Source: Mariprofundus sp.
Lineage (GTDB): Bacteria > Pseudomonadota > Zetaproteobacteria > Mariprofundales > Mariprofundaceae
NCBI GenBank assembly: GCA_021772775.1
Contig: JAJFLH010000038.1
Location: 1-64,000, forward strand
Reading direction: 5' to 3'
DNA: 64,000 bases
Shown: one piece after another, positions 14,354 to 40,640 of the stretch
How positions within the stretch are numbered: position 1 is the first letter of the stretch
Layout: each line of letters begins with the position of its first letter
The notes under the pieces: model-generated
Databases searched by the model: none
What the model was told of the DNA's origin: nothing
Seen by the model: the letters and a program-made list of their open reading frames with translations, nothing else
Made by a program: the position numbers and the translations under genes

Positions 14354-14913
14354 TTGATTTTAAAAGGAAATTATAAGAATTGTTTAGAGTTTGTTGTAAG
14401 ATAAACTGTCATGCAGGTTCCTATCAAAAAGCGATATTGAGCGTTAAATAGATAGTTTTTGACATAAATGATAGATATATAAATATGTCGCCGATGTCTA
14501 ATCTGATGCATTTCACTCGTGGGTAATAAAGATAGATAGTGCGAGTCTGCTATATAAACTATAGATCGTTGCAGTTGAGTTTATGATCGTGCATTAGAAG
14601 AATTGAATGGTTGAGTGTAGTGCTAGAAGGAAAAGCTGATACAGCGGAATATGGCTCTGTTCACATTCGCTCAAAGCTATGCCATCCCCGTTGTTGTTTA
14701 GTTCATAGTGTTGATAGACTAGGCAAGAGTTCGTTTCAACGTCTCGATAAAAGAAACGAGTCAAAGCACTCTTACCCTTATGTTGGAAGAAAACATGGAA
14801 GGAATCGCTTATACCGTTAACGTTTCATCAGATGAGAAGTCGTCGAGGCATGGCTTTTTCGTAGGCTACTGATGAATAGCTTAAGCGGCTATTCAGAGAG
14901 CTTTCAGTTCAGA
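14354..14913. other. Gene-free interval between rplQ and the yciB-like gene
   Basis: About 560 AT-rich bases with no convincing gene. One frame is open on the plus strand (14611-14820), but it lacks a ribosome-binding site and its translation has the character of random sequence. A short inverted repeat, TGAATAGC / GCTATTCA, lies at 14873-14895 just past the end of the minus-strand gene. It has no T-run, so it is only a weak candidate for a transcript end. I see no tRNA or known regulatory RNA here. Confidence 0.5.
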
Positions 14914-37770: not shown

Positions 37771-38050
37771 TCCTCTTAGCAATAAGTTTATCCAATAAGG
37801 GCTATGAAATGAGTGATGATCACTGATTCAAGTCACATTTTTTTCAAATTAAATGCAATTTATCATCAATATTGATGATGCGCGGCTATTTATAGGCTCT
37901 AGAATATCGCTCTTATAGAGTAGATGTCTGCTTTAACGTGAGCTGTTTGAAATCTGAAGAGGACATTCAGTAAACCACTAAGCTTTCAATATTTTATAGT
38001 CTAAAACAATGATGAACATAATATGGATGTATGGATGTATGGAGTGAATA
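37771..38050. other. Intergenic region upstream of the PEGA-type lipoprotein
   Basis: This AT-rich gap holds no gene that I can support. It contains the second copy of the 18-bp palindrome (37862-37879). Close to the lipoprotein start it has a tandem 8-bp repeat ATGGATGT at 38023-38038, with a third, changed copy reading into the GGAG ribosome-binding site. One of the repeat ATG codons (38031) opens a six-codon frame whose TAG overlaps the GTG start of the next gene. Confidence 0.45.
37862..37879. promoter_or_regulatory. 18-bp perfect palindrome, copy 2
   Basis: The same ATCATCAATATTGATGAT as at 24985-25002, here 171 bases upstream of the lipoprotein start. The bases on either side differ between the two copies beyond a few A/T positions, so the conservation is limited to the palindrome. 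That favours a protein-binding site over a longer duplicated segment. Confidence 0.5.
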
Positions 38051-38554
38051 GTGAAAGTTAAATTAGTATTATTGATAGGGGGGCTTTTATTTATGAGCTC
38101 CTGCGCAACAATTGTTGGAGACAAGACCCAGCTCATTGGGGTTAAAAGTGCTCCGGATAATGTGGTCGTCAGTGTTGTTGATGAAAAAGGAAGTGAGGTT
38201 TTTAAAGGTAATACCCCAACCAGTGTTACGCTACAAAAAGCTGATGGAAGTTACTTTGGTGGGAAAACATATAACTTAACCTTAAGTAAAGATGGCTATA
38301 AGCCAGTCACGATCTTGTTGGATACTAAAGTAAATGGTTGGTATATCGGAGGAAACCTTGTTTTTGGTGGTTTAATTGGTTGGTTAATTGTCGATCCGTT
38401 TACAGGAGCAATGTATACAATAAAGCCTGAATCCATTGATGCGCAGTTGAAAAAAAATGATGTGACTGGAAGCTGGTCAGAAAATGGCCTTCATATTGTA
38501 TTGTTAGAAGCGGTTCCAAGTCCTATGCGGAGCAATCTGATTCATTTGAATTGA
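38051..38554 (+). CDS. Lipoprotein with PEGA-like domain
   Basis: The 167-residue product has a signal peptide ending in the lipobox FMSSC, with C18 as the lipid-modified residue. The mature part has a PEGA-like strand pattern: VVVSVVDEKGSEVFKGNTP followed by YNLTLSKDGYKPVTILL. A hydrophobic glycine-rich hairpin (IGGNLVFGGLIGWLIVDPF) comes next and could enter the membrane. The start is GTG 38051 with GGAG seven bases before. The function is unknown; similar small lipoproteins are common at cell surfaces. Confidence 0.75.
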   Translation: MKVKLVLLIGGLLFMSSCATIVGDKTQLIGVKSAPDNVVVSVVDEKGSEVFKGNTPTSVTLQKADGSYFGGKTYNLTLSKDGYKPVTILLDTKVNGWYIGGNLVFGGLIGWLIVDPFTGAMYTIKPESIDAQLKKNDVTGSWSENGLHIVLLEAVPSPMRSNLIHLN

Positions 38555-38573
38555 TTGAAAGTGTAACTATCTT

Positions 38574-38602
38574 AAAGCGGTCACAATTGTGGCCGCTTTT
38601 TT
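38574..38602 (+). terminator. Intrinsic terminator after the lipoprotein gene
   Basis: A stem AAAGCGGTCAC / GTGGCCGCTTT with one G-T pair and an AATT loop is followed by six T. It begins 20 bases after the stop codon of the lipoprotein gene. Confidence 0.9.
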
Positions 38603-39335
38603 AGGTCTTAGTGCAGTAGAGCGCGCCGCCTTAAATGTGTGGAATCGAAAGTCAAAGAAGACGCGACCCTTTATAGGGATCAATCGTGAATTCGTTGAAT
38701 CACTTAGCAACGATTCAGCTAAGTGGGACAGCGCCATGCCGCGACGGTTTAGATTAACCTGAAACGTTCATGGTGTAGGCAAGTTCGTTCATTTGTTTGC
38801 TTGCCCAAACTAACGAACCAAAAAAAGGGCCCCCCGCCATCTCTGCCCTTCGGGTACCCTCAGCCATCATATTAAAGCGGCCACGGCTCCGCCGCTCTAC
38901 TCCGTTTAAATACGATTACTGAGGCAGATCTGAAAGGGAATGGAATCAAAATAAAGCCTTTATATCCCTCGCTAGCGGTCTGCCAGTTTTCGTTGTTTAT
39001 GGACGGATGAGAGCAGCGGAGCGCGACCGGCTATAAATGACAGAGATTAGGTACCCGAATGGGAGCAAGCGGCGCTACCTCGCCGCGCGATAAGGACTCT
39101 AATCAACATAAATGGGTTCCCTTGATTAGGGCTGTCCGAGACCTCAGGGCTAAGCCCCGCCTTTTCAGCTATCCTGATGAATTATCTTTGCAACTTTCTA
39201 GGGAACGCAAGAAAGTAGGAACTTACAATCACTAACATAGCGACTCACGGTAACAGTTCAGCCAAGCAGAGCTATTAATTGAAGCACGAGGTGTTTGTTT
39301 TGAGTTATCTTAAAGTGGACTTTGTTATCTCAGGG
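38603..39335. other. Gene-free, inverted-repeat-rich segment
   Basis: About 730 bases with stops in all frames at short intervals and no gene. It contains several inverted repeats: 38701-38725 (CACTTAGC / GCTAAGTG), 38783-38818 (GTTCGTT / AACGAAC with inner pairs), 38876-38896 (AGCGGC / GCCGCT) and 39099-39129 (CTAATCAA / TTGATTAG). AGTAGAGCG at 38615 pairs with CGCTCTACT at 38893. A C-rich run (GGGCCCCCCGCC, 38827-38838) stands out. CTCAGGGCTAAGCC occurs at 39143 and again at 39329. It looks like a degraded repeat element or a structured RNA; I cannot name it. Confidence 0.5.
38783..38818. other. Long hairpin with a competing alternative stem
   Basis: GTTCGTT (38783-38789) pairs with AACGAAC (38812-38818), and TTTG pairs with CAAA inside after a two-base mismatch. 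GGCAAG at 38778-38783 is complementary to CTTGCC at 38800-38805, which is in the loop of the first hairpin, so the two pairings conflict. This is inspection by eye, not a computed fold. Confidence 0.5.
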
Positions 39336-40640
39336 CTAAGCCTTAGCGCAGACCTGGGTTATGGCTGATGTGATACGGCTCAGCTGATGACCGGATATGA
39401 TAAAGGGGGGCATGGTGTAGAGCAGTTTTCCAAACGGGCGTAGCCAGACCCCGAGGTTGATCAGTTCTTTTTGTACTTGTTCGACATCGATGGCCTCGTG
39501 CATTTCGATGACACCGATTGCGCCTTTGATGCGCACATCGGCAACGCGATCCAGTTGACGGCAGATGTCTAATTCGGCGTTTAGTTGGCCTTCGATCTTT
39601 GCTACATCCATCTGCCAGTCCGAGCTGAGCAGTAACTCAATGCTGGCAAGAGCCACCGCACAGGCCAGTGGGTTGGCCATGAATGTGGGGCCGTGCATCA
39701 GCACACCTGAACTATCGGCATGGATGCCGTCACAGACATGTGTAGAGCAGAGAGTGGCAGCTAGGCTCATATAACCGCCGGTCAGTGCTTTGCCGATGCA
39801 CATGATGTCCGGCTCGATGCCCGCATGCTCACAGGCAAATAGCGTGCCTGTGCGGCCAAAACCGGTGGCGATTTCATCGACGATCAGCAATACATTGTGT
39901 TCATCACAAAGCCTGCGTACCTGACGTAAGAACTCAGGTGCATAAAAGCACATGCCACCGGCACCCTGTACGATGGGTTCGAGAATTACGGCAGCTAACT
40001 CGTGGTGGTGTACTTTGATGGCCGATGCAAAGGCATCAATATCTGAAGAGTCCCACTCCTCATCGCATGTTGCCCTTGGTGCATCAACGAAGATCTGTTG
40101 TGCCAAGATACTTGAGAAGAGGTGATGCATGCCTGTATCAGGGTCACATACGCTCATCGCACCAAAGGTATCACCATGATAACCCGAACGAATGGTTAAC
40201 AGTCTGTTTTTCTCTGGCTTACCGGTAGCCTGCCAGAATTGCAGTGCCATCTTCATCGCGACTTCCACCGATACGGAACCAGAGTCGGAAAAGAAGATAT
40301 GGTTCATATTGTGTGGTACGACCTCAAGCAGTTTCTCAGCCAACTTGGCTGCGGGCTTGTGTGTCAAACCACCAAACATCACATGCGACATATCTTTGAG
40401 CTGTGCTTCTACCGCTGCGTTGAGTTCAGGCACATTATAGCCGTGAATAGCACTCCACCATGATGACATGCCATCAATCACCATTCGCCCATCTTCAAAT
40501 TCCAGATAAACACCCGCCGCCCGTTTGACCGGATAGACTGGAATAGGGGATTTCATGCTGGCGTAAGGGTGCCAAACATGGGCACGCTCAAAATCAATCC
40601 AGTTTACTTGTTCAGCGTTTGAACTATGTTGGGAACTCAT
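39336..40640 (-). CDS. bioA: Adenosylmethionine-8-amino-7-oxononanoate aminotransferase
   Basis: The 434-residue PLP enzyme makes 7,8-diaminopelargonate in biotin synthesis. HVWHPYASMK near the start and DGMSSWWSAIHGYN are BioA-specific segments. The PLP lysine lies in GKALTGGYMSLAA near residue 278, and DEIATGFGRTG precedes it. It overlaps holA by four bases and is the last gene of the leuS-lptE-holA-bioA run. The stop codon lies inside a 14-base direct repeat shared with the downstream gap. No other bio gene is in the window. Confidence 0.95.
   Translation of the reverse strand: MSSQHSSNAEQVNWIDFERAHVWHPYASMKSPIPVYPVKRAAGVYLEFEDGRMVIDGMSSWWSAIHGYNVPELNAAVEAQLKDMSHVMFGGLTHKPAAKLAEKLLEVVPHNMNHIFFSDSGSVSVEVAMKMALQFWQATGKPEKNRLLTIRSGYHGDTFGAMSVCDPDTGMHHLFSSILAQQIFVDAPRATCDEEWDSSDIDAFASAIKVHHHELAAVILEPIVQGAGGMCFYAPEFLRQVRRLCDEHNVLLIVDEIATGFGRTGTLFACEHAGIEPDIMCIGKALTGGYMSLAATLCSTHVCDGIHADSSGVLMHGPTFMANPLACAVALASIELLLSSDWQMDVAKIEGQLNAELDICRQLDRVADVRIKGAIGVIEMHEAIDVEQVQKELINLGVWLRPFGKLLYTMPPFIISGHQLSRITSAITQVCAKA

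Follow-up and report, generated by a model that had tools for sequence, protein, structure and literature searches.

A decayed mosaic hairpin repeat beside a terminator in Mariprofundus, probably related to ISL3-linked MITEs of terminator T-tracts

Here, we report that segment 38603-39335 of a 64,000-nucleotide stretch of Mariprofundus sp. DNA (the window) is probably a degraded copy from a family of mosaic MITEs that sit in terminators and are linked to ISL3. The carrier of this family has inverted ends of about 25 bp matching the ends of an ISL3-family insertion sequence (IS), whose transposase would move it in trans. It inserts in the T-tract of an intrinsic terminator and duplicates 8 bp of the tract, so that the original hairpin keeps a T-run, and the host probably loses little by the insertion. 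Smaller hairpin modules (C, G and H) have been inserted, inverted and deleted inside the carrier, giving rise to the mosaic.

The segment had been described by a sequence-only reading as gene-free, rich in inverted repeats and placed between a strong terminator and the end of bioA, and each part of this description held. No ORF overlapping 38603-39335 exceeds 58 codons (the longest have 57-58 codons), and the inverted repeats named were all present (5 pairs; Table 1). Counting perfect arms with loops of up to about 40 nt, we obtained 11, 4 and 2 arms of at least 6, 7 and 8 nt, compared to means of 5.6, 1.4 and 0.4 in 500 dinucleotide shuffles, of which 11/500, 35/500 and 23/500 reached the counts of the segment; this excess over chance is modest, and recurrence is the stronger evidence. 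The upstream terminator consists of the hairpin GCGGTCAC-AATT-GTGGCCGC (38577-38596, -13.3 kcal/mol) followed by TTTTTTA; a simple consensus terminator scan did not list it. Downstream lies the minus-strand gene bioA, with its end at 39336. A small lipoprotein-like gene with a weak PEGA match below the cut-off lies upstream of the repeat (38051-38554); neither this gene nor such a repeat is present in the cysH-bioA interval of the relatives G011 and G006, and both are extra here. A different shared stretch around CATCAATATTGATGA (37850-37930) also occurs in the right flank of L038 and the left flank of L053; adjoining modules in several copies, it is possibly another small repeat.

Table 1. 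Features of the segment and of a second copy in the window (window positions).
Feature	Position	Strand	Remarks
Intrinsic terminator adjoining the element, proposed insertion target	38574..38603	+	T-tract 38597-38602 after the hairpin; complete relatives lie in such tracts
Left part without a second copy	38604..38732	.	starts GGTCTTAGTGC directly after the T-tract; any inverted end here would be badly decayed and cannot be recognised
Inverted pair, 9-mer	38615-38623 / 38893-38901		exact
Inverted repeat	38701-38725		CACTTAGC/GCTAAGTG
Module A, on the left of the mosaic as seen in the own genome	38733..38832	+	contains the hairpin 38783-38818; 14 nonredundant own-genome profile matches
Inverted repeat	38783-38818		13-nt arms, 85%
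Module C, first copy, covarying long hairpin	38850..38928	-	model R1, 76.8 bits
Inverted repeat	about 38877-38896		AGCGGC/GCCGCT
Linker E, between both C copies	38925..38975	+	aligned copies
Module C, second copy, opposite orientation	38979..39058	+	model R1, 62.1 bits
Module G, short palindrome	39054..39092	+	GCGGCG...CGCCGC; 23 nonredundant matches in fetched loci, 4 in own genome
Inverted repeat	39099-39129		CTAATCAA/TTGATTAG
Module H, small element in a diverged form	39102..39182	+	about 70 nt
Module I, on the right of the mosaic as seen in the own genome	39201..39282	+	10 own-genome matches
Right remainder to the bioA stop	39283..39335	.	weakly resembles the tails of other copies; inverted end absent
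Degenerate second copy in the window, facing module A pair	14678..14854	.	14854-14778 by profile, 14678-14760 by eye

The suspicion of a repeat element in place of a gene was borne out by own-genome copies, genus-wide matches and module profiles. In a blastn search of the genome from which it comes (3.12 Mb in 40 contigs), the segment gave 36 matches including itself, and at E<1e-4 second copies were found at 19 loci besides the window. The repeated part spans about 38733-39297; for 38604-38732, blastn-short found no second copy among the own-genome loci compared. Several contigs of this genome end within the repeat. Chance, or merely decayed intergenic DNA without relatives, would agree with the lack of an ORF and with the modest hairpin excess over shuffles, but the 19 other loci (up to 89% identity over about 200 nt) and the covariation described below make this explanation hardly credible, and lone decayed DNA was rejected on account of those copies. 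Among 40 relatives, 17 matched the segment, all of them Mariprofundus (17/22 other genus genomes), while none of the 18 relatives outside the genus matched by blastn. The earlier expectation of a repeat widespread in proteobacteria is thus not supported for the internal sequence, nor is it supported by the hairpin model of module C, which matched 18/23 genus genomes and, with stricter filters, 24/398 genomes of a phylum sample, belonging to six genera of one bacterial family. The inverted end sequence and the ISL3 insertion sequence that goes with it are the widespread part. Neither phages nor plasmids gave a blastn match to the segment, and an origin from either was rejected for this reason.

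Side-by-side reading and profile mapping showed that the copies are mosaics of common modules whose order and orientation vary. The window copy reads A(+) C(-) E C(+) G H I, while L038 and L039 carry module A at each end, facing inward. A peptide pointed out in the sequence-only reading, GGPFFGSLVWASKQ, maps to the module A hairpin region. The window copy and L037 have common modules (89% over about 200 nt); in L037, module A lies downstream of an intact inverted end, and in both L037 and L049 module I lies upstream of the right inverted end. Part of linker E (38932-38965) recurs in some other copies, and linker E used as a profile seed matched only itself. By eye, a serine recombinase-like frame starts directly after a module C copy in L044 (about 2050-2200, G000:C2).

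Complete relatives revealed the carrier. They have the inverted ends GGTTCATCGCG...CGCGATGAACC, 8-bp A/T-rich target duplications and no transposase. The end sequence occurred 111 times in 18/23 genus genomes, compared to 2 occurrences of a reversed control; at least one own-genome match (L239) sits in a protein-coding stretch and is likely due to chance. Pairing the ends yielded 25 elements of 159-958 nt with terminal inverted repeats in the genus genomes. The duplications, for example TTTTAAAA, ATAAAAAA and ATTTTTTT, were exact over 8 bp in 12/25 elements, 7/8 in 9/25 and 5-6/8 in 4/25, counts favoured by the way in which the elements were chosen, which required matching flanks such as T-rich sites easily give. 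With the setting applied, 6/25 elements showed no module C motif. Among the own-genome copies, L238 is a complete element; the left end of L037 is intact and its right end damaged, and a single intact end is present in each of L049, L050 and L052. Modules A and I are associated with inverted ends in this genome only in L037, L049, L050 and L052. In G002, the element forms tandem arrays of up to 5 copies (L175, L176, L177 and L178) with a period of about 324 nt and junctions such as CGCGATGAACC-AAAAAA-GGTTCATCGCG.

The carrier inserts preferentially beside terminator hairpins. A hairpin of -6 kcal/mol or better adjoined the duplicated tract in 21/25 elements (all except L206, L236, L264 and L279), compared to 17/91 control T-tracts taken from the same genus loci, and the hairpins beside the duplicated tract had a median of -13.5 kcal/mol. 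In a wider collection, from which three rows repeating genus elements had been dropped beforehand, the hairpin was found in 12/14 rows, or 11/13 sites as two rows are one site, and was missed in L307 and L319. Furthermore, the site of the KV element in L232 is empty in the relatives G001 and G020, where its flanks show overlaps of 8 and 9 bp and the terminator predicted there is whole. The terminators would presumably still work after insertion.

We next turn to the partner of these elements. ISL3 elements usually make 8-bp A/T-rich duplications, and the ISL3 domain PF01610 matched 4/23 genus genomes; the own genome had no PF01610 match. In two contigs of Mariprofundus sp. KV, the final 40 codons of an ISL3 gene lead directly into the same inverted end; these gene ends adjoin T- or A/T-tracts and are 93% identical to an Alloalcanivorax transposase. 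Complete ISs with these ends occur in Vibrio crassostreae and Alloalcanivorax profundimaris; their ORFs, counted from ATG, have 397-401 aa, and the ISs lie in terminators, flanked by 8-bp duplications. In addition, the end pattern was found in at least 120 contig stretches of Alcanivorax, Vibrio, Duganella and others. Among the end-pattern matches listed, module C was absent from 73/80 loci (best match E 0.91), the other 7/80 being Mariprofundus or related records left out of this count. Judged from the shared ends, an ISL3 transposase presumably moves the elements.

Covarying stems, which had been named beforehand as a test, were found in module C. Across 36 aligned copies, pairing was seen in 82.0% of cells, compared to 30-44% with the partner slid. 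In 92 distinct copies aligned by the covariance model, 84.8% of cells were paired, compared to 34-41% when slid, and 24/28 pairs had changed on both sides (584 such cells, compared to 185 in shuffles). This alignment had been fitted to the structure and is biased in its favour, and related copies are not independent. Module C, perhaps together with the whole array, might be a selected functional structured RNA or a terminator-type regulator in which the mobile ends are incidental. The strong covariation speaks for this, as do C cores without the ends in other genera, often directly after genes, but copies vary in order, orientation and presence, no Rfam match was obtained, and selection on the fold could be mimicked by the correction or inversion of palindrome arms, as one H loop that reads inverted in L237 relative to L236 illustrates. 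In the outer stem, G-T cells exceeded A-C cells only weakly (48 to 32 in 36 clusters), so that these counts, taken to tell RNA from DNA, do not show folding of one strand as RNA. We therefore regard the structured-RNA explanation as unlikely. Rfam gave no match up to E 1 in window positions 38300-39600 and none at gathering scores in 8 loci, and a known structured RNA was rejected for lack of such a match. In other genera of the family, module C lies within a core of about 155 nt without ISL3-type ends, often directly after a gene (L180-L185 and L187-L189), while L186 has weak ends beside a terminator-like hairpin; as these copies lack the ends, module C need not belong to the carrier.

Module H is nested inside other modules in several copies. 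It is about 70 nt long, begins GATTC and ends TTTGT or similar, and it follows a T-rich tetranucleotide resembling its own 3' end. Insertions of H break up the C arm of L226, L236 and L237, the hairpin of module A in L237 and, in L159, L233 and L234, an inner hairpin; in other copies the hairpins at these sites are uninterrupted, so that both filled and unfilled sites are seen. Hairpins lie near both ends of module H, and no inverted ends or duplication were seen. A three-copy query found it in 17/23 genus genomes and gave no match in the own genome, although the window has a diverged copy. Copies lie head to tail in L061, L065 and L066 of G003 (for example L066 2365-2589), in arrays of about 72-76 nt each in which a copy follows the preceding TTGT end. 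L236 and L237 share the last hairpin of H, with the loop in opposite orientations (TCAGCTATCCTGCTGA and TCAGCAGGATAGCTGA), which looks like a flip via the arms. The insertion of module H resembles that of IS200/IS605-type elements. Of 8 Y1 loci inspected for H-like ends, the flanks were read in 6, where the ends differ, and 2 had no readable ORF; going by the ends that were read, the IS200 genes of the genus are unlikely to be the movers of module H.

Y1 enzymes could also have shaped the whole array, as a REP/BIME-like mosaic moved by RAYT (Y1) transposases with C and G as REP palindromes. RAYT-like Y1 genes are indeed common (21/23 genus genomes, 7 in the own genome), and modules lie within about 1.4 kb of 2/20 fetched Y1 loci (L104 and L105). 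However, these 2/20 were the only loci with modules nearby when a RAYT gene flanked by palindromes was sought, the modules of L105 belong to a complete inverted-end element directly after the Y1 gene, and just one of the 7 own-genome Y1 loci (L097) has a module match, a marginal one. The outer element moreover carries 8-bp duplications, which Y1 enzymes are not known to make. This origin is very unlikely.

For the window copy itself, an ISL3-linked MITE remains the preferred reading. Several observations count against it: the window copy lacks recognisable ends and a duplication, 38604-38732 is unique, no ISL3 match exists in the own genome, few own-genome copies connect A and I with inverted ends, some paired-end elements show no C motif, and module C occurs in other genera without these ends. 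The copy starts directly after the terminator T-tract, and no recognisable inverted ends or duplication were found at 38604 or near 39335; since the ends are not recognisable, we infer its route, namely that it came by the terminator and MITE route and later lost its ends. Its filing as a relic is based on the common modules alone. An exact 14-base direct repeat links 39143-39156, in module H, with 39329-39342, across the bioA stop codon, and as a guess it may mark a deletion that took the right end. As a relic the locus is ordinary, and the family is more interesting than the locus. We tentatively propose, while considering it rather doubtful as a whole, that an ISL3 branch in several genera uses the terminator T-tract as a safe harbour, where the 8-bp duplication would rebuild a T-run on each side and thus leave the host terminator working; that its MITEs in Mariprofundaceae have turned into platforms where the self-spreading hairpins C, G and H insert into each other; and that C represents a new class of structured mobile repeat selected for its fold. 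If the ISL3-linked MITE reading is right, it shows a way for an IS family to expand in densely packed bacterial genomes at little cost, by inserting at the ends of genes and copying the landing signal, and the terminator T-tract becomes an ISL3 target that can be tested. The nested, covarying hairpins from the poorly studied Zetaproteobacteria would also be useful for asking whether small palindromes spread themselves.

In the accessible part of a largely open-access literature, we found no report that describes these repeats from Mariprofundus or a choice of terminator T-tracts by ISL3 elements. The nearest relatives are ISL3-family ISs (PF01610) and their derived MITEs, which share the inverted ends, the 8-bp A/T-rich duplications and the target; the elements here differ in lacking a transposase and in their internal hairpin mosaic, which was not found in the ISs outside the bacterial family. 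For module H, in contrast to IS200/IS605-type elements, no Y1 gene with matching ends was found. An ISL3-family element at an rRNA terminator of Enterococcus faecium is, as far as the available text tells, a single plasmid-derived event that reportedly disrupted the terminator (PMC11702846). IS1272 and TnSha1 of staphylococci also insert in transcription terminators, but according to the sections at hand IS1272 cuts the hairpin stem and deletes part of it without a duplication, whereas the elements here duplicate the T-tract and keep the hairpin (PMC4923244). The BOX, RUP and SPRITE repeats of pneumococcus, as presented in the portion consulted, have other sequences, another host and other ends, and a matching IS was not found for them; they are likewise modular hairpin repeats with inverted ends, duplications and mutual insertion, and like the repeats here they are frequent between convergent genes (PMC3049150).
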